NCBI GenBank assembly: GCA_035532835.1
Contig: DATKQG010000104.1
Span: 1-34,690, forward strand
Direction of reading: 5' to 3'
From: Candidatus Dormiibacterota bacterium
GTDB lineage: Bacteria > Vulcanimicrobiota > Vulcanimicrobiia > Vulcanimicrobiales > Vulcanimicrobiaceae
DNA length: 34,690 nt
Every line of letters starts with the position of its first letter. The first letter of the stretch is position 1. This document shows positions 8,019-20,068 of the stretch, piece by piece. A program made the translations under genes and the position numbers. The notes under the pieces were generated by a model, which was not told where the DNA came from, made no database searches, and saw only the letters and a program-made list of their open reading frames with translations.

Positions 8019-9542
8019 GTGCAATGGCTCGCGCTCCTACTCTCGTTTATCGCGCTGGTTCCGTTGGACGACCGGCCCGTCACCGTGCAACTGCCGGTGA
8101 TGCTCGGCCGCATCGCGGGCGTGCCCGTGCGCGTTCCGCCGCGCCCCTTGCTGGGCCATTACTTGCACCCGGGCCAACCGGACCGCATCATCGCTTGGCT
8201 CAACGGGCCCCAGAACCGCGGCGCCGGCGCGATCGTTCTTTCGAGCGACATGCTCGTGTATGGCGGGCTGGTCGCTTCGCGCGTTCCCGATAGCGCGTCG
8301 TATCAGGACGGGTACTTTCGCTTACGCGCCTTGCGGCAGGTGCGCGCCACGCATCCGCATGCGTGGATTGCGGCGTTCGGCACCATCATGCGTTTGGCGC
8401 CCACCGGCGTTCCGGCGATCGGCTCCGCGGCCGGATTTTTCGCGGCGTATCCGACCTGGACGTACCTGCAGCAGTATGCGAACTTGCACGATCCGCCGTT
8501 ACCGCAAGAACGCGAACAAGCGGAAAAATTGCGCGCCGAGGCGGGCCCCGCGTTCGATGCGTACCTTGCCGCTCGCGCGCGCAACTATGCCGTGGATCGT
8601 ACGCTCATCGACACGGTCCCGGCGGGCGTGGTGAACCGGCTCGTGCTGGGGCAGGATGACGCGGGGCCGGTAGGGCTGCACGTCAAGGATGTCTACGGCC
8701 TAGAGCAAGCGGCGCAGGCGAGCGGCGCGGCCGGCCGGATCGCGATCGAACCGGGTGCCGACGAACTCGGCATGGTGCTCGTCGCGCACGCCCTCGCACG
8801 CCGCATCGGTTGGACACCGCGCGTAGCGGTGCGCTATTCCACGCCCCAGGGCGCGACCTATCAGGATCCGCTGGAGTTCGCGCCGATCGGGGTGACGATC
8901 GGGCACCTCATCGCGCTGTGCGGCGGACGGCTCGTCGAACGCGATCCCGACATCGTGCTCGACGTACGCGTTCCCGAAACGACGCAGGCGCTCGACGACG
9001 CGTTCGTTACCGAGATGCGCGCCGACCTCGCCGCGCACCGTCGGGTCGCGCTCGCGGACCTATCCTTTCTCGAACCCACCTATGCGTCGCAAGCGGCATT
9101 CGCGGCGCGCATCCTGCGCGACGGCATCGCTCGGCGACTCGAAGCCTACGCGGCCTGGAATACCGACGCGAATACGGTCGGAACGGCTCTGGCAGAAGCG
9201 GTTGCCGCCGGAGCCGGCCGGCGCTCCGGATCGTACGATGCGTTGGCGCATCGCGACTTTACGTTTATGCGTTTTCTCGACGACGATGCCTTCCATGCCG
9301 TCGTTCGCCCGCAACTCAACGCCGCGCTGGATGCGCAGGGTGTTACCGACCACACGTATCTCGTGCGCTCGGTGGCCGCGCAAAGTGAGGCATTGAACAA
9401 CGCGTTACTCTGGCAACAGGCGGTCATGCTGCTCCCGCAACTGTACCCCGACCATCACATTGCGTTCATGCGCATCACACTGCCCTGGAACCGAACCTTC
9501 GAAACGAAGATTCGCGTGCGATTGGCTCCGACTATTCCTTAG
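8019..9542 (+). CDS. DUF4127 family protein
   Basis: The protein has 507 aa and begins with a short hydrophobic stretch (MQWLALLLSFIALV) running straight into the family's hallmark PLDDRPVT. The stretch may be a signal peptide, but it also supplies the first beta strand of the domain. Further family-like segments are the VRVPPRPLLGHYLHPG loop, AGAIVLSSDMLVYGGLVASR, and an EPGADELGMVLVAHALARR segment with conserved acidic residues. Function of DUF4127 is not established. It starts 45 bases after murQ on the same strand, the last gene of this block, so a role in murein-sugar uptake or breakdown is a reasonable inference. Its stop codon (9540-9542) overlaps the stop of the convergent epimerase gene. 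Confidence 0.85.
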   Translation: MQWLALLLSFIALVPLDDRPVTVQLPVMLGRIAGVPVRVPPRPLLGHYLHPGQPDRIIAWLNGPQNRGAGAIVLSSDMLVYGGLVASRVPDSASYQDGYFRLRALRQVRATHPHAWIAAFGTIMRLAPTGVPAIGSAAGFFAAYPTWTYLQQYANLHDPPLPQEREQAEKLRAEAGPAFDAYLAARARNYAVDRTLIDTVPAGVVNRLVLGQDDAGPVGLHVKDVYGLEQAAQASGAAGRIAIEPGADELGMVLVAHALARRIGWTPRVAVRYSTPQGATYQDPLEFAPIGVTIGHLIALCGGRLVERDPDIVLDVRVPETTQALDDAFVTEMRADLAAHRRVALADLSFLEPTYASQAAFAARILRDGIARRLEAYAAWNTDANTVGTALAEAVAAGAGRRSGSYDALAHRDFTFMRFLDDDAFHAVVRPQLNAALDAQGVTDHTYLVRSVAAQSEALNNALLWQQAVMLLPQLYPDHHIAFMRITLPWNRTFETKIRVRLAPTIP

Positions 9543-9949
9543 CGTTCGTCAGCGTTCGTCGGCTGGCAGAGTTCGATCAACACGCCGCCGGTCGATTTCG
9601 GATGAAGGAACGCGATCGCGTTGCCGTGCGCCCCAGCGCGCGGATGCTCGTCTATGAGCCGCACGCCTTTCGCGCGCAGTTCGGCGAGCTTCGCTTCGAT
9701 ATCGTCCACGCGATACGCGGTGTGGTGGAGCTTGGTTGCGGCCTCGCCCCGAAATACCGCGATCGGCGAGCGTTCGTCCAACGGGCGCAGGAGTTCGATC
9801 GCGGAATCCCCCGCGGCCAAACCGACGGCTTCGACGCCTTGATCGAGAATCGTCTCGCGATAGAGCTGTTTGAAGCCGAGCGTCCGGACGTAGAGATCGA
9901 TGGTCGCCTCGAGGTCTTTCACCACGATGGCGATGTGATCGATGGTCAC
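9539..9949 (-). CDS. mce: Methylmalonyl-CoA epimerase
   Basis: The 136 aa protein is of the vicinal-oxygen-chelate (glyoxalase) fold and interconverts (S)- and (R)-methylmalonyl-CoA. It has the expected paired beta-alpha-beta-beta-beta modules and metal ligands: His5 in DHIAIVV, His75/76 in [11 protein letters not shown], and Glu126 in VLIELCQP. The [10 protein letters not shown] segment and the [12 protein letters not shown] ending are typical of the family. The frame is open further upstream, but that part is antisense-free mutase coding sequence in another frame, so the GTG at 9949, which makes a GTGA overlap with the mutase stop, is the likely start. It is the last gene of the minus-strand propionate block. 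Confidence 0.93.
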
Positions 9950-11526
9950 GCAATGGCCTCCTTGGCGCGATAGACACCAAATACGTCGCGCAGGACATTG
10001 CAGATTTCCCCGAGCGTCGCACCGGAGTCGACGGCTTCGAGAAAGTGCGGCATGAGGTTGTCGTGCCCGGCCGCCGCCGCGCGCACGGCGCTCAAACGCT
10101 CCGCAACGATGCGCTCGTCGCGATTGCGCCGGTAGTCGTGCAGGCGTTGCACCTGCTCTCGTTCCACCCGTTCGTCGATGCGTTGGAGCGGTATCCGTGC
10201 GCCCGAACCGGCCGCTTCGGCGAAGCGGTTGACGCCGACGACGACGGCTTCTCCGCGTTCGATCGCTTGCTGCGCGGCGTACGACGAATCGGCGATGCGC
10301 GTTTGCATCCACCCGCTCTCGATGGCCGCTATGCTGCCGCCCATCTCATCGATCTGCGCGATCAGCGCCGATGCACGTTCGACGAGATCGGCCGTGAGCG
10401 ATTCCACATAGTACGAACCGGCGAGCGGATCGACCACGTCGGTAACGCCGGATTCGTAGCCGATAATCTGCTGCGTGCGTAGCGCGACCTTCGCGCTTTC
10501 GGCGGTTGGCAGCGCGAGCGCTTCGTCTTTGCCGTTCGTGTGCAGCGATTGCGTCCCGCCCAGCACTGCGGCCAGCGCTTGAATGGTGACGCGCACGACG
10601 TTGTTATCGGGCTCCTGAGCCGTGAGCGTCGAACCGCCGGTCTGCGTGTGAAAACGCAGCATCTGCGAGCGCGGATCTTTACACCCGAACTCGTCGCGCG
10701 TGATACGGGCCCAGAGATAGCGAGCGGCGCGAAATTTCGCGACCTCTTCGAAGAAATCGTTATGCGCGTTCCAGAAAAACGAGAGGCGTGGGGCTATCGT
10801 GTCGAGGTCGATCCCGGCCGCCCGAGCGGCGCGCAAATACGATTTGGCGTTGGCCAGCGTAAAGGCGATCTCTTCCAGTGCCGTCGATCCGGCTTCGCGA
10901 ATGTGATAGCCCGAGATCGAGATCGTGTTCCATTGCGGCACCTCGCGCGCGCAATAGGCCATCACGTCGGTCACCAAGCGCATCGACGATTCGGGCGGAT
11001 AGATATACGTTCCGCGGGCGACGTACTCTTTGAGTACGTCGTTCTGAACGGTTCCGCCCAACGCCGCAAACGGAATCCCGCGCCTGCGCGCGACGGCGAG
11101 GAGCATCGCGAGCAGAATCGATGCCGGCGCGTTGATCGTCATCGAAACCGTTACGCGGTCGAGCGGAATGCCGTCGAGCAGCGTTTCCATGTCGCCGATC
11201 GCATCGATCGCGACGCCGACTTTGCCGACTTCACCGCGCGATTGCGGTGCGTCGGAATCGTAGCCGAGTTGCGTCGGCAGATCGAACGCCACCGAAAGTC
11301 CGGTCGTGCCGTGCTCGAGGAGATAGCGGTACCGCGCGTTCGATTCGGCGGCGGTTGCGAACCCCGCGTATTGGCGCATCGTCCACAGCCGTCCCCGGTA
11401 CATATCCTTGCGGATACCTCGCCCGTAGGGGAATCGTCCGGGTTCGCCCAGATCTAAGTGCGGCCGATCCTCGGCTGTATACACGGGTTCCAGCGGAATG
11501 CCGCTGGCGTTGAGATCGCGGGCCAT
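9946..11526 (-). CDS. mcmA: Methylmalonyl-CoA mutase, large subunit without B12-binding domain
   Basis: The 526 aa protein is the substrate-binding TIM-barrel part of adenosylcobalamin-dependent methylmalonyl-CoA mutase, which makes succinyl-CoA. Typical segments are [20 protein letters not shown] (about 44-63), [17 protein letters not shown] (76-92), RGTYIYPPE (171-179), [11 protein letters not shown] (203-213) and [20 protein letters not shown]. Tyr53, Arg171, Tyr207 and His208 align with Tyr89, Arg207, Tyr243 and His244 of the Propionibacterium enzyme, with identical Arg-to-Tyr spacing. That favours methylmalonyl-CoA over isobutyryl-CoA as substrate. The C-terminal cobalamin-binding domain is absent, so a separate small B12-binding subunit must be encoded elsewhere. 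No MeaB-type GTPase is nearby. It lies 47 bases downstream of the carboxylase gene. Confidence 0.93.
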
Positions 11527-11573
11527 ATCCGGTGGTTCGCTATCGCCACGGTTGCTACTTCGTTCCGAAGCGG

Positions 11574-13319
11574 TTAGGCAAGCGTCACCAGCGGCGCTCC
11601 GGCCTCCACCGTCTCGCCGGCCGCGACATGCACCGTTGCGGCGATTCCGGCGCGGTGGGCGCGGATCTCGTTCATCATCTTCATGGCCTCGACGACGGCG
11701 ACGACCTGTTGCTCTGCGATTTCTTGACCGGGCTCAACCCGCAATTCGATGACGGCGCCGTGCATGGGAGAGAGGATCGCGTTGCCGTGTGCGCTCGTCG
11801 AACGCTTGCCGGCCGCTCCGGCACGCGCGCTCCGGCGCGCACCGTTCGTGGCGCTACCGGTCGCGGGCCGGTCGATCACGCGGACGCGGTAGAGCCGGTC
11901 GTTGACTTCGACGCGTACCTCGTCGCTCGGCGGGGCGCCGCCTATCGACGGCGTGGGCGGCTCGGCGGTGGCCGATGGTGCGAGCGTCGCAGCGAACGGC
12001 TCGAGCGTTGCGGTACCGTAGCTCGCGTCGCGCACCGGGGCGTAATCGCAGAGCGCGCGCAGGAGCGCAAGCGTGGTGGGAACGCCGGTGATCACGTACT
12101 CGTCGATCGCGCGGGCAAGGCGCGCGATCGCCTGTTCGCGCGTCGGTGCCCAGACGATGAGCTTGGCGATCATCGAATCGTAGTCGGGAGTGATGGCATA
12201 TCCGGGATACGCCGCGGTATCGACGCGCACGCCGAGGCCCGCGGGCTCGCGATAGGCCGCGATCGTCCCGGGCGCCGGGCGGAAGTTCTGCGTTGGATCC
12301 TCCGCGTTGACGCGGCCTTCGATGGCCACCCCGCGGAAGGTGATGTCGGCTTGTGTGAAGCCCAACGGCTCGCCCGCCGCGACGCGAATCTGCTCGCGAA
12401 TCAAGTCGATGCCCGAAATCATCTCGCTCACCGTGTGCTCGACTTGAATGCGCGTGTTCATTTCGAGAAAATAGAACGCATCGCCGCTCACCAAACATTC
12501 GATCGTGCCGACCGAGTCGTAGCCGATCGCCTGCGCCGCGCGAATCCCCGCATCGCGGAGTTGAGCGATGACCGACGCCGGAATCTGCGCCGGCGCCTCC
12601 TCCCAGAGCTTTTGATGCCGCCGCTGGAGCGAGCAGTCGCGCTCTCCGACGTGAACCGTGTTGCCGTGCTTGTCGGCGAGAATCTGCAGTTCGATATGCT
12701 TGGGGTTGTCGAGATAGCGTTCGGCATAGATGGTGCCGTTCTTGAAATACGCCTCGGCCTCGCGTTTGGCGTTCGTAAACGCCGATTCGATGTCGTCCAG
12801 CGTACGGGCGACCTTGAGGCCTTTGCCGCCGCCTCCGCCCGAAGCTTTGAGGGCCAACGGCAATCCGAACTCTTTGGCCGCCGCGATCGCCTGGGCAACG
12901 TCCTCGATGGCGTGCGTTCCGCCCGGCACGAACGGCACGCTCGCCTTTTGCATGGCCTGGCGCGCGCGCAGCTTGTCGCCCATCGCATCGATCGCATCGG
13001 CGTGCGGGCCGATCCACGTCAACCCCTCCCCAACTACTCGACGCGCGAACGCGGCGTTTTCCGCGAGAAAGCCGTAGCCCGGATGAATCGCTTGCGCGCC
13101 GGAGCGTTTTGCGACGTCGATCAAACGATCGATGTTGAGATAGCTTTCGCTGGGCGCGGCCGCGCCGATAAGGTAGGCTTCGTCCGCCATGCGCACGTGC
13201 AGCGCGTCGCGGTCGATTTCGGAGTAGACGGCAACGCAGGCAATGCCCATCTCGCGAGCCGTGCGCAGGATGCGTACCGCTATTTCGCCACGATTGGCGA
13301 TGAGTATTTTGGAGAACAT
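11574..13319 (-). CDS. pccA: Propionyl/acyl-CoA carboxylase alpha subunit (biotin carboxylase plus BCCP)
   Basis: The protein has 581 aa from the ATG at 13319, where the family's [17 protein letters not shown] begins; the longer frame upstream adds unrelated residues. It carries an N-terminal biotin carboxylase with an ATP-grasp fold: the glycine-rich loop [10 protein letters not shown] at about 160-169 and the active-site [10 protein letters not shown] at 286-295. A low-complexity Ala/Ser/Arg linker follows at about 485-510. The C-terminal biotinyl domain has the EAMKM motif, with Lys547 as the biotin site. It carboxylates biotin with bicarbonate and ATP and passes it to the carboxyltransferase subunit. 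The matching beta subunit is at 17531-19084. A role in acetyl-CoA carboxylation as well cannot be excluded. Confidence 0.93.
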
Positions 13320-13335
13320 CGAGTGGTGTGGGCCC

Positions 13336-13530
13336 CTACCAGCGATTGGATGCGTGGGTGAACGTGCAGGCACGGATATCGTCGCGATCGGCGTCCGGCA
13401 GGCGCATCGCGAGTTTCCACGCGCTCCCGGTGGATGCCGGCGATCGGTCCGCCGGCACGTCGAACGTTGCCAAGACCGCGGCTATCGCGGCGATCTCGTC
13501 TTCGCCGGCCGGCCCGAGAACTTCGATCAC
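13336..13530 (-). CDS. Small acyl-CoA carboxylase epsilon-like subunit candidate
   Basis: This 64 aa frame begins with a GTG that forms a GTGA overlap with the fabI stop (13527-13530) and ends 16 bases before the carboxylase alpha start. It reads IEVLGPAGEDEIAAIAAVLATF, followed by a Pro/Ser-rich stretch, a lone Trp (AWKLAMRL), and a C-terminus ending in Trp. That layout (short strand, E-E-I-A-A-hydrophobic helix, Trp/Arg-rich tail) matches the small epsilon subunits that bind actinobacterial acyl-CoA carboxylase beta subunits. The position directly before the alpha gene supports it. Sequence similarity in such short proteins is weak, so the call is a candidate. Confidence 0.55.
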   Translation of the reverse strand: MIEVLGPAGEDEIAAIAAVLATFDVPADRSPASTGSAWKLAMRLPDADRDDIRACTFTHASNRW

Positions 13531-14312
13531 GAGTTGAAATCCGGCGGGTACATTCCCATCGCATGGTATCCCGCGTCGACGAAATGGACGTCGGCCGTGA
13601 TCGACCGCGAGAGGTCGGAGGCCAGATAGACGGCCGTATCGCCGACGTCGTCGGCGGTGATGTTGCGGCGAAGCGGTGCGACCTTCGGTACGACGTCGAG
13701 AATGCGAGAGAATCCGCCGACTTGACGGGAACTCGCGGTCTTGATCGGGCCGGCCGAGATCGCGTTGACGCGGATGCCGCGCTCGCCCAGATCGTACGCG
13801 AGGTAGCGGACGATCGATTCGAGGGCGGCTTTGGCGATGCCGGCGATATTGTAGTTGGGAACGATCTGCGTGGCACCGAGATAGGAGAGCGCCATCACCG
13901 ATGCGCCGTCGTTCATCCCTTCGCGTAGCGTATTGACCAGCGCGATCAGCGAGTAGGACGAAATGTCGAGCGCCGTCGTGAAGCCGTTTCGCGACGTGTC
14001 GTACACGCGGCCCGCGAGGTCTTCTTTATTGACGAAGGCGATCGAATGGACGAGCGCGTCGAGCTTGCCGAACGGCGCCAGGGCTTCACGCATCGCGGCT
14101 AGCGAAGCATCGTCGGAGACGTCGCAGGCGACGACCGGGCCTCCACCCAGCTCCGCCGCGAGTTTCTCCACTTCGTCCCGCACGCGTTCGCCCTGATAGG
14201 TAAAGGCGAGTTGCGCGCCATGCTCGTGCATGCGGCGGGCGATCCCGGTCGCGATCGACCAGCGATTGGCCACGCCCGTAATGAGGGCGCGTTTCCCTTC
14301 AAGTAGTTTCAC
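13527..14312 (-). CDS. fabI: Enoyl-[acyl-carrier-protein] reductase FabI
   Basis: The 261 aa protein is a short-chain dehydrogenase-type NADH-dependent enoyl-ACP reductase, the last step of each fatty acid elongation cycle. Motifs are ITGVANRWSIATGIA at 11-25 (the FabI-type nucleotide loop), SIAF at 90-93, ALSYLGAT at 141-148 with Tyr144, and the catalytic Tyr154-x6-Lys161 in PNYNIAGIAKAALE, followed by GPIKTASS. I chose the GTG at 14312 because the family starts at LLEGKRALITG; an ATG at 14333 would add seven residues. It heads the minus-strand block with the propionyl-CoA genes and lies 54 bases from the divergent telA start. FabI is the target of triclosan and isoniazid-type inhibitors. 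Confidence 0.94.
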   Translation of the reverse strand: MKLLEGKRALITGVANRWSIATGIARRMHEHGAQLAFTYQGERVRDEVEKLAAELGGGPVVACDVSDDASLAAMREALAPFGKLDALVHSIAFVNKEDLAGRVYDTSRNGFTTALDISSYSLIALVNTLREGMNDGASVMALSYLGATQIVPNYNIAGIAKAALESIVRYLAYDLGERGIRVNAISAGPIKTASSRQVGGFSRILDVVPKVAPLRRNITADDVGDTAVYLASDLSRSITADVHFVDAGYHAMGMYPPDFNS

Positions 14313-14366
14313 GCCGGTTAGATACCAGCGCAAGGGGCGGCGTCCTCTCGGGAGAAGGGCACCGGC

Positions 14367-15515
14367 ATGTCCGAGCAGCCATCGGCGAGCGACGAGCTCG
14401 CGCTTACACCACCCGAGCCGGTCGCGCCGGTATCGGCCGAATCCGCAGGCGCCCGCGTTCGACTCGAGCAGGGCGACGTCGCCTCGGCCGATGCGCGCGT
14501 AGCGGCTTTTGTCGACGACCTCGGGCGCCTGGATGTCGACGACGCGGCGTTTCGGGCAAAAATCGAGGCGGTCGAGGCGATCGGACGCGATGAAATTCGC
14601 GACGCCGGCGCCGCTTCGAACCGTCTCCTCGAACGGCCGTTGCGAGCGTTGCGCGAGGGTCCGATGGCGGCAAATTCAACTGTTGCCAAGAGTCTGGTCG
14701 ATCTGCGCAATACGGTCGAATCGCTCGACCCGTCAAAAAGAGGAAATCTCTTCGAACCGCGCCGTCTGCTGGGGTTGATTCCGTTCGGCAGCGCGTTGCG
14801 GAGCTATTTCGATGAGTATCAATCCGCCCAAGCCCACCTTGGTGCGATCGTGGATTCGCTCTATCGCGGGCGCGACGAATTGCTGCGCGATAATGCCGCA
14901 ATCGAAGAGCAGAAGGTCGCGATGTGGGAACAGATGCGCAAGCTGCAACTTGCGATCTATCTCTGCGCGCAACTCGATGCCGCACTCGAAGGGCGCATTG
15001 CCGGCTACGAGACCAGCGACCCGGCGCGGGCAAAGAAACTGCGCGAGGACGCGCTGTTCCCGCTGCGTCAGAAACGGACCGATCTGCTCACGCAGATGGC
15101 CGTGAACGTGCAGGGGTATCAAGCGCTCGACCTGATCAAGAAAAACAACGGCGAGTTGATCAAAGGCGTCGATCGCGCCACGTCCACGACGCTGGGCGCG
15201 CTGCGCACGGCCGTGGCGACGGCCCAGGCGTTGACCAATCAGAAGCTGGTCTTGAGCCAAATCTCCGCGCTGCAAAATACGACGAACTCCATGATCGAAT
15301 CGACGTCGAAGATGCTGGGCGAGCAGGGGGTTGCGATCTACCAGCAAGCGACCGCTCCTAGCGTCGATCTCGAGACGTTACATCGCGCGTTCGAACGGAT
15401 ATACGCAGCGATGGACGCGCTGGATGCGTATAAAGGGCGCGCCGCACAGAGCATGGAGCAGACGATCGACGCACTGACGACCGAGGTCGATGCGGCGAGG
15501 AAGCGTCTCACGTGA
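14367..15515 (+). CDS. TelA/toxic anion resistance family protein
   Basis: The 382 aa protein belongs to the TelA (KlaA) family associated with tellurite and other toxic anion resistance; its biochemical role is not established. It starts with an acidic, low-complexity tail (residues 1-50), then a mostly helical body with long heptad-like stretches. These include DDLGRLDVDDAAFRAKIEAV, PFGSALRSYFDEYQSAQAHL, and a C-terminal QKLVLSQISALQNTTNSMIESTSKML segment, which are typical of the family. A good ribosome binding site (GGGAGAAGGG) sits about 7 bases before the ATG. No signal peptide or membrane segment is present, so it is cytoplasmic. It ends in a GTGA overlap with the next gene, with which it is likely co-translated. 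Confidence 0.88.
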   Translation: MSEQPSASDELALTPPEPVAPVSAESAGARVRLEQGDVASADARVAAFVDDLGRLDVDDAAFRAKIEAVEAIGRDEIRDAGAASNRLLERPLRALREGPMAANSTVAKSLVDLRNTVESLDPSKRGNLFEPRRLLGLIPFGSALRSYFDEYQSAQAHLGAIVDSLYRGRDELLRDNAAIEEQKVAMWEQMRKLQLAIYLCAQLDAALEGRIAGYETSDPARAKKLREDALFPLRQKRTDLLTQMAVNVQGYQALDLIKKNNGELIKGVDRATSTTLGALRTAVATAQALTNQKLVLSQISALQNTTNSMIESTSKMLGEQGVAIYQQATAPSVDLETLHRAFERIYAAMDALDAYKGRAAQSMEQTIDALTTEVDAARKRLT

Positions 15516-16276
15516 AGATCCCGCCCGAGGCGGCGCAGATCGTCGAGCGGATACAGAACCTCCTCGATACCGCGCAATCGTACGGCCTGGATGCGCGCGA
15601 GGGGGAGGACGCCTACGCGTTGCGAGAGACCCGCAGCCGCTATCTTCCCGAGACGATCGCCGCCTACGAGGCGATTCCGCCCGCGCTGCGGAGCCTGCCG
15701 AAGGGGTCGCAGCCAAGCGCCGATGCCTTGCTGATCGAGCAACTCTCAATTTTGGAGCGTGCCTGCTCGCAGCAAGTCGAGCGTCTGGCCGAATCCGCGC
15801 GGAGCGCACTTTCGACGAATGGCCGTTTTTTGAGCGAGCGCCTGGGCTCGCTCGATGCGCTACCCGAGCCCGTCGCGGCACTACCGGATGCGCAGCCGCA
15901 CATCGCCCAACGCTTTTTGGATGCCATCGGGCGAGAGGCTCCCAAGCCCTCGGATCGTCTTGAATCGATCGCGCGAAGATTTGCGCTAGCTATCCCGCAT
16001 CTGGTCGAAATCGAACGCGGAGGCCTGTTCGGCCGCGGGCCCGTGCGACGCGTCGCGATCACCGTGCCGGTCGGGGCGGACCGCTATCGCTACACGCTCT
16101 CGGCAGACCCAAGCGGCGCCCTGGATGCCGCGTGCGCGAAGATCGTGCGAGGCGTCGCCATTCGTACCGAGGCGGTTGCATTGGACGAGTGGATACGAGC
16201 GCTGTTCGAGGATATCGAGGCGTTCGCTCGTACCCAAGCGGTACATACCGATGCGATCGGCGCGCTTTTGCGCTAG
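15512..16276 (+). CDS. TelA-linked hypothetical protein, 254 aa
   Basis: I do not recognise a named family. The protein has 254 aa, no signal peptide and no membrane segment, and is helical in the first half: IVERIQNLLDTAQSYGL, then SRYLPETIAAYEAIPPALR, then an EQLSILERACSQQVERLAES helix. The second half has an unrelated beta-rich stretch (PVRRVAITVPVGADRYRYTLSADPSG, residues about 183-209) and a final helix. It is coupled to telA by a four-base overlap, so the two products probably work together. In many genomes TelA is accompanied by an XpaC-type protein; this could be a distant functional counterpart, but I see no motif that proves it. Confidence 0.7.
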   Translation: MKIPPEAAQIVERIQNLLDTAQSYGLDAREGEDAYALRETRSRYLPETIAAYEAIPPALRSLPKGSQPSADALLIEQLSILERACSQQVERLAESARSALSTNGRFLSERLGSLDALPEPVAALPDAQPHIAQRFLDAIGREAPKPSDRLESIARRFALAIPHLVEIERGGLFGRGPVRRVAITVPVGADRYRYTLSADPSGALDAACAKIVRGVAIRTEAVALDEWIRALFEDIEAFARTQAVHTDAIGALLR

Positions 16277-16308
16277 TTCGTGCGTTCGCGGATAGAGAGA
16301 TAGACGAG

Positions 16309-17193
16309 ATGGGATTCTTCGGCTTTCGGGGCGGCCAACCACCGCAGCAGCAACAGCAATCGGCCGGGATCGGCGAGGAGCCGCTGCATACGGCCGGCGG
16401 GGTACCGCAGGACGCGATCGCGCGCTTGCGCCGCATGTCGGGCGAGGGCGGTAAAGCGCTCTGGACGAGCGACCTGTCGGTTAACGAATTCGTCCTGTTA
16501 GATCGCCTCGGCATGAAGCCGCTGGGCCTCGTGCTCGGCAGTTCGATCTATCACGTAGGCATACAATACGGCAATTACTACCAGAATCAGGAACTCGAGT
16601 ATCTTTCGGCGGCGATGTACCACGCGCGCGAACTCGCAATAAAGCGCATGGAAGAAGAAGCCGACGTGCTCGGCGCCGACGGCATCGTCGGCGTACGCAT
16701 CAACGTGATCGCTTATAATTGGGCCGAAAGCGCGTTGGAGTTTACGGCGCTCGGCACTGCGGTCAAGGCGCCGGCCGGAGAATCGCACCGCACCGTGCAC
16801 GGAAAGCCGTTTACCAGCGACTTTTCGATGCAAGATTTCTACAAGATCTACCAAGCCGGATACATTCCGGTCGAAGTTGTGATGGGCAATTGCGTCTATC
16901 ACGTCGCGCATCAAGGCTTCATGCAATCGCTGCGCACGTGGGGCGCGAACGTCGAACTCTCCAATTATACAGAGGCGATCTACGACGCGCGCGAGCTCGC
17001 GATGTCGCGGATGCAGGCTGAGGCCGAGGCGCACCAAGCCGAAGGCGTGGTCGGCATGACGATCAGCGAGCGGAGTTGGATCTGGCAGCCGCACGTGATC
17101 GAATTCTTCGCGCTGGGCACCTCGATCGTGCACCGCCCCGGCGCCGCGGCTGGCCCGGATGCACCGACCTACACCGTCTCACTCGACGATTAA
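16309..17193 (+). CDS. Protein with two YbjQ-type (PF01906-like) domains
   Basis: The protein has 294 aa from the ATG at 16309; the frame continues upstream into the previous gene, but homology does not. After a glutamine-rich N-terminal tail (GGQPPQQQQQSAG) there are two copies of a YbjQ-like domain. Copy one contains LGLVLGSSIYHVGIQYG, then the helix YHARELAIKRMEEEADVLGADGIVGVRI and ALEFTALGTAV. Copy two contains PVEVVMGNCVYHVAHQG, YDARELAMSRMQAEAEAHQAEGVVGMTI and VIEFFALGTSIV. YbjQ proteins are small oligomeric proteins described as putative heavy-metal-binding, with function unproven. An internal duplication is visible. Its position behind TelA suggests a shared stress role. Confidence 0.85.
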   Translation: MGFFGFRGGQPPQQQQQSAGIGEEPLHTAGGVPQDAIARLRRMSGEGGKALWTSDLSVNEFVLLDRLGMKPLGLVLGSSIYHVGIQYGNYYQNQELEYLSAAMYHARELAIKRMEEEADVLGADGIVGVRINVIAYNWAESALEFTALGTAVKAPAGESHRTVHGKPFTSDFSMQDFYKIYQAGYIPVEVVMGNCVYHVAHQGFMQSLRTWGANVELSNYTEAIYDARELAMSRMQAEAEAHQAEGVVGMTISERSWIWQPHVIEFFALGTSIVHRPGAAAGPDAPTYTVSLDD

Positions 17194-17209
17194 TTAGAAG
17201 AAGGACCGC

Positions 17210-17515
17210 ATGTTTCTCTTGCTCTCACGGTATGTCAAACCGCTCGAAGAAGTCGACCGCGTTCTGGCCGAGCACCGCGCGTTTCTCGACCGCTACTACG
17301 ATGCCGGGCTCTTTGTGGTTTCGGGCTCTCGTGAGCCGCGGACCGGGGGCGTGATCGTGACGACGGATGCTCCGCGCGAAGCCGTCGAACGCGCGCTGGC
17401 GGAAGATCCCTTCGTGCGCGAAGGCGTCTCGCAATACGAGATCGTCGAATTTAACGCGAGCAAACGCGCCCAGGGATTCCTTGCCGCGCTCGCGGCTAAT
17501 TCGGGCGGCGCATAG
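17210..17515 (+). CDS. YciI family protein
   Basis: The 101 aa protein is a YciI-like ferredoxin-fold protein. The family pattern is seen as FLLLSRYVKPLEEVDRVLAEHRAFLDRYYDAGLFVVSGSREPRTGG, with the conserved His of EHRAFL and a hydrophobic strand, then AEDPFVREGVSQYEIVEFNA. Members are related to muconolactone isomerase and dye-decolourising-like folds, but most have no known reaction. A good ribosome binding site (AGAAGAAGGA) precedes the ATG, 16 bases after the YbjQ-domain gene. It ends 15 bases before the convergent carboxyltransferase gene. Confidence 0.9.
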   Translation: MFLLLSRYVKPLEEVDRVLAEHRAFLDRYYDAGLFVVSGSREPRTGGVIVTTDAPREAVERALAEDPFVREGVSQYEIVEFNASKRAQGFLAALAANSGGA

Positions 17516-17530
17516 GCCCCTGCGCCGTAG

Positions 17531-19084
17531 CTAGAGCGGAATGTTGCCGTGCTTGCGTTTGGGGCGCTCGACGCGTTTGTTCTCTAACATCGCCAGAGCG
17601 TTGGCGATGGCCCCGCGCGTGCGATGCGCCTCGATGACGTCGTCCACATAGCCGCGCTGCGCCGCGATGTACGGGTTGGCAAAGCGCTCGGTGTAATCGT
17701 CGATGAGTTCCTTCATCTTTGCGTCTTTATCTGCGGCGGCGGCGATTTCGCGTCGGAAGATCGTCTTGACCGCTCCTTCGGCGCCCATCACCGCGATCTC
17801 GGCCGTCGGCCACGCGAGGTTGATGTCGGCGCGGATGTGCTTGGAGGCCATAACGTCGTAGGCGCCGCCGTAGGCTTTGCGCGTGATGATCGTGATCTTC
17901 GGGACCGTGGCCTCGGCATAGGCGTACAGCAGCTTTGCCCCATGGACGATGATGCCGCCGTACTCCTGATCGGTCCCGGGGAGGAAGCCGGGCACGTCGA
18001 CGAAGGTGACCAGCGGGATGTTGAACGCATCGCAGAAGCGCACGAACCGGGCCGCCTTGATCGACGACTTGATATCGAGGACGCCGGCTAGAATGCTCGG
18101 CTGATTCGCGACGATGCCGACGCTACGCCCGGCGACGCGCCCGAAGCCGATGAGGATATTGGGCGCGTAGAGCGGCTGAATTTCGAAGAAATCTCCGTAA
18201 TCCAAGACCTCTTCGAGTACCGCGTGCATGTCGTAGGGCTTGTTGGGCGAGTCGGGGACCACGTCGTCGAGTTTCGGGCTCACGCGCTGCGGATCGTCGT
18301 CGCAGGCGAAGCGCGGCGGGTCTTCGAGATTGTTCTGCGGGATATACGAGAATAGCGTCTGCGTGAGTTCGCACACCTCGTCTTCGTCTGCCCCGACCAA
18401 ATGCGCGACGCCGCTCTTGCTCGCATGCGTGGTCGCACCGCCGAGTTGCTCGAAGGTGACGTCTTCGCCGGTGACGGTTTTGATGATCTCGGGGCCGGTG
18501 ATGAACATCTGCGAGATCGCTTCGGTCATCAGCACGAAATCGGTGATCGCCGGTGAGTAAACGGCTCCGCCGGCGCAAGGGCCCGCAATGAGCGAGAGTT
18601 GCGGCACGACGCCGCTGGCCTGCACGTTACGCCAGAAGATTTCGGCATAGCCGCCGAGCGAAACGACCCCCTCTTGAATGCGCGCTCCGCCGGAGTCGTT
18701 GATGCCGATCATCGGCGATCCGGTGCGCACGGCAAGGTCCATCACCTTACAGATTTTCTCGGCAAAGACTTCGCCGAGCGATCCGCCGAGCACGGTGAAG
18801 TCTTGCGAAAAGAGAAAGACTTGCCGGCCGTCGATGGTGGCCCGCCCCGTTACCACGCCGTCGCCGAGAAATTCGCGCTCGTCCAGACCGAACGCGCTGG
18901 TGCGATGGACGGCGAAACGATCGAGCTCGGTAAACGACCCGTCGTCGACCAGGCGTTCGATGCGCTCGCGCGCGGTGCGCTTGCCGCGGGCGTGCTGCTT
19001 GGCGATCGCATCTTCGCCGGCGGGAGCCTGCGCGCGGGCACGCAGGCGCTCGAGTTCGGCGTACTTCTCTTGGTGCGTCTTCAT
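17531..19084 (-). CDS. pccB: Propionyl-CoA carboxylase beta subunit (carboxyltransferase)
   Basis: The 517 aa protein is a biotin-dependent acyl-CoA carboxyltransferase with two crotonase-like halves. The N half carries the oxyanion loop [10 protein letters not shown] at 131-140 and [12 protein letters not shown] at 167-178; the C half carries [16 protein letters not shown] at 362-377 and [16 protein letters not shown] at 402-417. Asp410 in GGAYD occupies the position where Streptomyces PccB has Asp and acetyl-CoA-preferring AccB has Ile, which points to propionyl-CoA as main substrate. It forms the enzyme with the alpha subunit at 11574-13319, although the plus-strand TelA block separates them. 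The gene starts 6 bases after the nitronate monooxygenase stop. Confidence 0.94.
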
Positions 19085-19090
19085 CGACGA

Positions 19091-20068
19091 TCAGGCTTGC
19101 ACGGAGGCTCGAAATCGGCCTTCCGCGACGATGCGGGCCAAGGCGGCGTCGTACTCCCGCGCGAGCCGCTCGATCAACGCGTGCGCCGGAACGACCTCGC
19201 GCACGGACCCGACGCCTTGGCCCGCGCCCCAAATATCTCGCCACGCTTTGGCGGCGCCATCGCCGAAGTGCATCTTGGAGGGATCGGATTCGGGCAGGCG
19301 ATCGGGGTCGAGCCCGGCCGCGCGAATCGAGGCTTTGAGGTAGTTGCCGTGCACGCCGGTAAACAAGTTGGTGTAGACGATCTCGCTCGCGTCGCCGCGG
19401 ACGACGCCGTCCTTATACGCGTCCGAAGCGTTGGCTTCGCCGGTCGCGATGAATGCCGAGCCGATATACGCAACGTCGGCGCCCATCGCTTGCGCGGCCA
19501 GCACGCCGCCGCCCGTCGCAATCGATCCGGAGAGCGCGATGAGGCCGTCGAACCACGCTCGCGTTTCGGCGACGAGGGCAAACGGCGATAGCGTTCCGGC
19601 GTGGCCGCCGGCGCCGGCGGCCACTAAAATCAAACCGTCCGCCCCTTTCTCGATCGCCTTGTGGGCGTGCCGTTGGTTGATGACGTCGTGCAAGACGGTG
19701 CCGCCGTATTCGTGGATCGCGGCATTGACTTCTTCGTTGGCTCCGAGCGACGTGATGACGATCGGCACGCGATACTTGACGCACAGAGCGAGGTCGTCCA
19801 TTAAGCGATCGTTGGACTTGTGGACGATTTGATTGACGGCAAACGGCGCGGCGGGCCGATCGGGATGGCGCGCGTCCCAGTCTGCAAGGGAGCGTGTGAG
19901 TTCATCGAGCCATTCGTCGAGCTGGGCGGCCGGACGAGCGTTGAGCGCCGGAAAAGATCCCACGATGCCCCCGGTGCACTGCGCGATCGTCAGCTTGGGA
20001 TTCGAGATAATGAAGAGCGGTGCGCCGATGACCGGAATGCGCAGACGCGAGAGCCAGGACGGTTTCAT
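19091..20068 (-). CDS. Nitronate monooxygenase-like FMN oxidoreductase
   Basis: The 325 aa protein is of the 2-nitropropane dioxygenase/nitronate monooxygenase TIM-barrel family, FMN-dependent enzymes that oxidise nitronates such as propionate-3-nitronate. Signatures are IPVIGAPLF at the N-terminus, GGIVGSFPALNARP, VNQIVHKSN, the AAGAGGHAGTLSP motif with the proposed catalytic His, ATGGGVLAAQAMGADVAYIGSAF and a late WGAGQGVG loop. I start it at the ATG at 20068, four bases after the transporter stop; the longer frame overlaps the transporter. Some family members are instead enoyl reductases or have other flavin roles. Placement before pccB could hint at detoxification of a propionate analogue, but this is inference. 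Confidence 0.88.
   Translation of the reverse strand: MKPSWLSRLRIPVIGAPLFIISNPKLTIAQCTGGIVGSFPALNARPAAQLDEWLDELTRSLADWDARHPDRPAAPFAVNQIVHKSNDRLMDDLALCVKYRVPIVITSLGANEEVNAAIHEYGGTVLHDVINQRHAHKAIEKGADGLILVAAGAGGHAGTLSPFALVAETRAWFDGLIALSGSIATGGGVLAAQAMGADVAYIGSAFIATGEANASDAYKDGVVRGDASEIVYTNLFTGVHGNYLKASIRAAGLDPDRLPESDPSKMHFGDGAAKAWRDIWGAGQGVGSVREVVPAHALIERLAREYDAALARIVAEGRFRASVQA

Follow-up and report, generated by a model that had tools for sequence, protein, structure and literature searches.

A small gene between fabI and pccA in Candidatus Eremiobacterota that probably encodes a divergent epsilon-type carboxylase subunit, and its link to a hairpin segment of the alpha subunit

The 64-residue product of a minus-strand gene at positions 13336-13530 is, judged from sequence comparisons, very probably a divergent epsilon-type subunit of a propionyl-CoA-type carboxylase, whose alpha subunit would be encoded at 11574-13319 and whose beta subunit would be encoded at 17531-19084. 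The gene lies in a 34,690-nucleotide stretch of DNA (hereafter the window), one of the 120 contigs (C104) of a draft genome of 2.89 Mb. By alpha subunit, most of the nearest named relatives are genomes from metagenomes that carry the label Candidatus Eremiobacterota, and the occurrence of an epsilon subunit outside the actinobacteria, as proposed by a sequence-only reading of the window, is borne out by this host phylum. New here are the known subunit in a further phylum, a linked hairpin segment in the alpha subunit, and the hidden epsilon-like genes to which the hairpin points.

The frame begins with a GTG codon (13530-13528) and ends with the stop codon at 13336-13338. The start codon shares bases with the TGA (13529-13527) of the upstream neighbour, a fabI-like enoyl-ACP reductase gene (13527-14333, minus strand), which yields a GTGA overlap at 13527-13530. 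Sixteen bases (13320-13335) separate the epsilon stop codon from the ATG of pccA, which begins at 13319; pccA (11574-13319, minus strand) encodes the alpha subunit with its biotin carboxylase (BC) and BCCP domains. Further downstream on this strand are the genes for the methylmalonyl-CoA mutase large subunit (9946-11526) and for a glyoxalase-family protein (9539 to approximately 9955; the frame as listed spans 9539-10312), which from its position is probably the methylmalonyl-CoA epimerase. The minus-strand order is fabI, epsilon, pccA, mutase and glyoxalase-family protein. The 64-residue frame, the GTGA overlap and the 16-base gap had all been described in the sequence-only reading, which gave no strand. 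A four-base start/stop overlap upstream of epsilon is found at 57 of 75 epsilon loci (34 GTGA, 19 ATGA and 4 TTGA). Because other frames at 13336-13530 are also open in this GC-rich DNA, the presence and length of the frame are by themselves no evidence for a gene.

The beta-subunit (carboxyltransferase) gene pccB (17531-19084, minus strand) is separated from fabI by plus-strand genes at 14367-17515, which encode a TelA-type toxic anion resistance protein, an unassigned protein, a YbjQ-like protein and a YCII protein. In many relatives pccB, fabI, epsilon and pccA follow one another on a single strand. Throughout the family and order of the window, with few exceptions, the gene immediately upstream of epsilon is fabI; in genus g27 it is pccB, not fabI, and in family f3 pccB directly precedes epsilon at all ten loci with a detected upstream gene (pccB-epsilon-pccA), an order resembling the beta-epsilon pairs of actinobacteria. 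We infer that in the lineage of the window fabI became placed between the beta and epsilon genes, beta and fabI being separated later. On the other side, a plus-strand gene for a DUF4127 protein (8019-9542) adjoins the carboxylase genes. A search with Rfam at gathering scores gave no match in window positions 9000-20000, and the epsilon protein of the window found no match in a plasmid collection.

Conservation of the frame carries the case for a real gene. The sister genome has the same open reading frame with 82% identity, and relatives have reading frames with the motif P..EE.AAI.A.L ... SaW+.AaR at the same place between fabI and pccA, from which we conclude that the frame is real. With a first model, epsilon was detected in 33 of the 38 Eremiobacterota-type loci (L061-L100) having an alpha start, a count that leaves out L095, L098 and L101 (no alpha start) and a spurious match in L080; seven of the 33 are identical to sequences from the G genomes, the majority of these sequences being part of the model. 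All but one of the 33 exceed 9.8 bits, the highest score among 39 loci from other phyla (L102-L140); the exception is L100 with 9.6 bits. For L066 and L080, a second model picked up epsilon in the same genomes (as L205 and L238); the alphas of the remaining loci, L070, L081 and L086, belong to the epsilon-less kind. At the level of genomes, 72 of 149 in the phylum match the epsilon profile at E ≤ 0.001 and 77 do not match at that level. The within-phylum models were built from the same loci on which they were counted.

Selection on the frame is purifying but relaxed. In 23 close pairs dN/dS was below 1 throughout (range 0.27-0.70); the permutation test gave P ≤ 0.05 in 15 pairs and higher values in eight, with 0.056 for the window's own pair, and the pairs share sequences, so that they are not independent. 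Epsilon evolves much faster than its neighbours, with a dN/dS of 0.44 versus 0.03 for fabI and 0.08 for alpha in the same pair. Loss of the frame in relatives and lack of purifying selection had been named beforehand as the outcomes that would speak against the gene; the frame is kept at the 33 loci and the two recovered with the second model, and all 23 pairs lie below 1.

The predicted model of the window protein contains helices at residues 10-22, 37-43 and 49-61 and is of modest confidence (pLDDT 74.6, pTM 0.35). Epsilons share a core that consists of the helix P..EE.AAI.A.L, a variable linker and one tryptophan. In the window protein this conserved helix is predicted at residues 10-22 (13465-13503, minus strand), and the tryptophan, Trp38, lies in the second predicted helix, residues 37-43 (AWKLAMR; 13402-13422, minus strand). 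The helix motif described by the sequence-only reading is present, its exact letters being DEIAAI and not EEIAAI. The Trp-rich tail of that reading did not hold up: only Trp38 is conserved, being invariant in 34 of 34 epsilons, and the terminal Trp64 is an arginine in the sister genome. A second, C-terminal Trp motif (GPgaWR-like), near-invariant in the ten actinobacterial epsilons compared, is absent from the window protein, which is therefore not of the actinobacterial sub-type. Epsilons of genus g8 (L186, L187, L189, L190, L068 and L071) have an SRWxxAGRL-like motif twice, which looks like a duplication of the Trp helix, and a similar motif pair is seen in a hidden epsilon-like frame of the actinobacterial genome G183 (L334). 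A fold comparison of epsilon covered six chains only, with a best Z of 3.5 and no epsilon among them, and is uninformative for a helical protein of 64 residues.

The assignment to the epsilon family comes from profile comparisons. PF13822 was the best Pfam family for the window protein (16.9 bits, E = 0.01); because the cut-off is 25 bits, the protein is not formally a member by Pfam's rule. Among 23 family members, 19 match PF13822 at E ≤ 1 (best 5.5e-7), and at the fabI-epsilon-pccA locus the match exceeds the cut-off in four of 60 genomes. The profile search with an epsilon-subunit model that had been suggested earlier placed this family first, with the window protein below the cut-off. Searched against 177,635 distinct PDB sequences, the family profile found AccE5 as its only significant match (E = 0.0017 and 0.0018). 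Alignment of the Eremiobacterota epsilons to ten actinobacterial epsilons by hhalign gave probabilities of 95.4% and 96.5%. With the Eremiobacterota model all ten actinobacterial epsilons scored above 500 shuffles; in the reverse direction, 16 of 34 Eremiobacterota epsilons exceeded all 1,700 shuffles. No NCBIfam epsilon model matched, and a single-sequence search with the window protein found its nearest relatives and a longer list made up mostly of chance matches. The likeness to acyl-CoA carboxylase epsilon subunits claimed from the sequence alone is upheld by these comparisons: homology to the actinobacterial subunits is detected at the profile level, the genes are linked to those for carboxylase alpha and/or beta subunits, and the partner alpha joins BC and BCCP by a short linker and not by a full BT domain, in an AccA3-like layout.

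AccE5 (PDB 30hu, 9t97, 9tdm, 9yx1, 9yx2, 9yx4 and 9yx5) likewise has a P[TS].EE.AAl.AvL helix followed by a tryptophan. It differs from the window protein in length (94 versus 64 residues), in possessing the C-terminal Trp motif and in its gene context: AccE5 is in an operon with beta according to PMC4064979, whereas the window gene lies between fabI and alpha. In PMC13118682, AccE, PccE and AccE2 of Streptomyces coelicolor (PF13822) are small subunits of alpha-beta-epsilon carboxylases; they differ from the present family in being actinobacterial and encoded in beta-epsilon gene pairs, and Eremiobacterota also retain an ordinary AccA. That coupling of epsilon to alpha would be unusual, as had been supposed, is contradicted by the relatives: it is usual in the phylum, and the actinobacterial locus L290 also has the order beta-epsilon-alpha.

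Propionyl-CoA carboxylase is the likeliest complex for the alpha, beta and epsilon subunits on sequence grounds, because the mutase gene and the probable epimerase gene are adjacent, beta contains GGAYDVM (at residue 406) and the genome has a separate accA. We take the aspartate of this beta motif to mark propionyl-CoA enzymes. Ordinary AccA was found above cut-off in 38 of 41 Eremiobacterota genomes. The best Foldseek match of the alpha model was 9yx2_A, the alpha subunit of a long-chain acyl-CoA carboxylase of Mycobacterium smegmatis. VIA-align of the same model ranked plain biotin carboxylases first and 9yx2 eleventh, because only the BC domain was aligned, and was not used.

The alpha subunit contains a 13-residue hairpin segment (residues 469-481; 11877-11915, minus strand) between BC and BCCP, which is conserved amid an otherwise variable linker and was modelled, with low confidence, as two short strands. 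Its presence tracks that of epsilon. We examined 91 loci, namely the 89 of 104 alpha rows that were fetched plus the window and the sister; the 15 rows left out were the window and sister themselves, five near-copies and eight cut alphas. For the count, the threshold for epsilon was 14 bits and the hairpin was called by a fixed pattern, the epsilon model being derived partly from the same loci. The hairpin was present in 71 of 71 complete alphas with an adjacent epsilon and was lost or degraded in 13 of 13 complete alphas without one; five loci had cut or unreadable alphas. The other two (G120 and G054) showed a hairpin and no epsilon in the fetched stretch. Both exceptions were resolved: in G120 epsilon lies 0.76 kb upstream, and in G054 beta, epsilon and the alpha start are consecutive on another contig. 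With these two counted, the hairpin occurs in 73 of 73 complete alphas having epsilon.

The 13 epsilon-less alphas are 12 alphas of genus g36 and that of G114 of genus g18, in which the other complete alphas have both hairpin and epsilon (6/6). The segment of G114 is degraded, not deleted, and the genome is rated 84% complete. On a tree of the BC part (87 rows) two changes are needed, both forced by supported branches, which amounts to two independent losses. Both affect the same conserved 13 residues, and parts of the surrounding linker persist. When 18 g36 genomes and G114 were searched, no credible epsilon turned up at another place, at a level at which true epsilons can score as weakly as the matches seen. 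Weak matches in 12 of the 18 g36 genomes (best E = 0.0023) were taken as chance; the one inspected, in G079, had no query genes adjacent. In this search G116, which does have epsilon, reached only E = 0.012 with it, and given this weak score a divergent copy may lie elsewhere in g36 or G114.

The same segment is found in mycobacterial AccA3, the alpha partner of AccE5, where it reads VVVEVGGRRLEV. AccA3 crystallised alone (5mlk, 451 residues) aligns up to its residue 463; four listed alpha chains of 9yx2 comprise 478-592 residues and 9yx1_B only 415, a contrast in chain length that gives a slight hint at most. That epsilon and the 13-residue segment of alpha are lost together suggests a binding site, and the hairpin is probably the place on alpha where epsilon binds. 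At residues 326 and 338 of the window beta, A-to-G and I-to-T exchanges are seen in the betas next to the epsilon-less alphas of L070, L081 and L086, and both positions are invariant in 18 others. They are possible epsilon contacts in three related sequences, and for this reason the differences between the 18 betas with and the three without epsilon were not used as evidence.

To test the hairpin rule we took 100 genomes of Actinomycetota, the phylum of Paraeggerthella; nine of them have PF13822 at E ≤ 1e-5. Alphas were inspected in these nine and in 11 others of our choice, and hairpins were judged by eye. A hairpin-type alpha was present in 9/9 genomes with a Pfam epsilon and also in 10/11 without one. 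The ten were scanned for hidden epsilons from 60 bases before to 700 bases after the end of the beta gene, and an epsilon-like frame was found after beta in seven of them (G209, G255, G250, G244, G183, G189 and G249), its score under one or other of two epsilon models being 16.1-31.5 bits. As a null, 2,000 windows taken at random from alpha loci of actinobacteria, without L299 and L320 because these contain epsilon, all stayed below 15 bits. G200 and G186 have frames of similar layout after beta with scores within this null, G213 has no epsilon-like frame in the scanned stretch, and three second beta genes of the same genomes are followed by no frame above the null. The rule that the hairpin marks epsilon holds in most of the genomes examined and is not universal, because G200, G186 and G213 are without a clear epsilon. 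Actinobacterial epsilon homologues come after beta; in L290 (genome G171) beta, epsilon and alpha are consecutive, which is the order of Eremiobacterota family f3.

We considered two other roles for the small protein. The frame could be translated into something other than a subunit, for example a leader that couples the translation of fabI to that of pccA, its motif being an effect of composition. The tight overlap with fabI, the short gap to alpha, the fast evolution and the low identity would all suit such a leader, which we nevertheless regard as very unlikely: it would explain neither the invariant Trp38 and helix motif in 34 sequences nor the homology to epsilon at the profile level, epsilon directly follows beta without fabI in family f3, and the frame is lost together with a segment of alpha. 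The alternative frames argue in the same direction. Frame +1 has stops and a higher pN/pS in 23/23 pairs; frame +2 is mostly stop-free, and its pN/pS is higher than that of the epsilon frame except in the pairs L008/L175 and L096/L175. Still less credible is that the protein descends from epsilon and has become a subunit of a different enzyme such as FabI. The immediate proximity of fabI, near-universal in the family and order of the window, would fit; against this, the upstream gene is pccB in family f3 (10/10) and in genus g27, the segment lost with epsilon belongs to alpha, and the actinobacterial homologues come after beta.

A different objection concerns only the coupling of epsilon and hairpin, which could be a by-product of operon and alpha-linker shortening and not of physical contact. 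This is improbable, though by a smaller distance than the two readings above. Only two independent losses are visible, one of them in the degraded segment of the 84%-complete G114, and in actinobacteria G200, G186 and G213 combine a hairpin alpha with no clear epsilon. Linker shortening would not readily account, however, for two losses that strike the same 13 residues and spare parts of the linker around them, for the same segment in mycobacterial AccA3, or for the hairpin having pointed to hidden epsilons in seven of ten actinobacterial genomes.

In the mechanism we propose, the epsilon helix 10-22, followed by the Trp38 helix, would bind both the alpha hairpin 469-481 and beta. Docked on the hairpin, epsilon would tie alpha to beta and hold it there, so that biotin could shuttle, and would take the place of the BT domain, the larger linker found in ordinary PCC/MCC alphas. 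Without epsilon, activity should drop, as reported for actinobacterial epsilons: the carboxylase activity of S. coelicolor is strongly dependent on AccE2 (PMC13118682), and epsilon dependence in actinobacteria is also reported (PMC4064979). The methylmalonyl-CoA product would pass to the epimerase and mutase encoded next door.

The BT domain is the linker domain of PCC/MCC alpha subunits. Like epsilon and the alpha hairpin taken together, it presents in turn a helix-like stretch, a tryptophan and strand-like stretches, and it occupies the hairpin's position in the alpha chain, between BC and BCCP; in contrast to them, it is part of one chain and exceeds 100 residues. In BT-type linkers the AAA-rich helix-like stretch is followed by a W...GWR-like motif, and the strand-like stretches stand at the end. 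We tested the identity of epsilon with the BT helix by profile against the N-terminal part of the linkers, using 12 of 15 (L314, L353 and L354 were left out). The hhalign probability was 12.4% for pooled epsilons, 14.4% for those of Eremiobacterota and 2.6% for the actinobacterial ones alone; the first two values lie above all 60 column shuffles of the pooled comparison (maximum 0.26%). The match (12-14%) is too weak to establish homology, for which reason the replacement of the BT domain by epsilon is put forward as a hypothesis.

The idea draws on the layout of the BT linkers and on epsilon-like tails of biotin carboxylases. Some stand-alone biotin carboxylases of Myxococcota and Acidobacteriota (L344:1501-1641, L138 and L114) end in a tail with AAIAAAL ... 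S[RP]W..AGR-like motifs, as in epsilons; the tail is fused to the enzyme, whereas the epsilon of the window is a separate gene. Compared with pooled epsilons, the tails gave an hhalign probability of 92.9% (60 column shuffles, ≤ 3.5%; 71% with actinobacterial epsilons alone), from three sequences only, of which L344 had been picked up by means of the epsilon profile. In a control search of 57 genomes from the phylum to which a Polyangiaceae genome belongs, the single match was this fused biotin carboxylase tail. Epsilon may, tentatively, be the detached helix-Trp half of a BT-like linker domain, of which the alpha hairpin would be the other half: two chains would rebuild the one-chain domain of PCC/MCC, the first half being a biotin carboxylase tail in some Myxococcota and Acidobacteriota, and the hairpin would predict cryptic epsilons, too divergent for the Pfam model to detect, both in Eremiobacterota and in many actinobacteria. 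We consider this broader proposal somewhat less probable than not, in distinction to the assignment of the subunit itself.

Searches of open-access literature brought up no report of epsilon with these carboxylases in Eremiobacterota, nor of an epsilon linked to the BT domain; a term search of PMC5407890 found epsilon only in a reference. The epsilon subunit had been thought special to actinobacteria. With a family spread across Eremiobacterota, and with hidden actinobacterial relatives that went undetected by the Pfam model at the applied threshold, the three-subunit design would be of greater age or mobility than previously supposed. Because epsilon and the alpha segment are lost together, the site of epsilon action is open to direct test. 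This bears on Mycobacterium tuberculosis as well: its ACCase5, which is reported to use the AccA3/AccE5 pair, has the same hairpin segment in its AccA3 alpha subunit.
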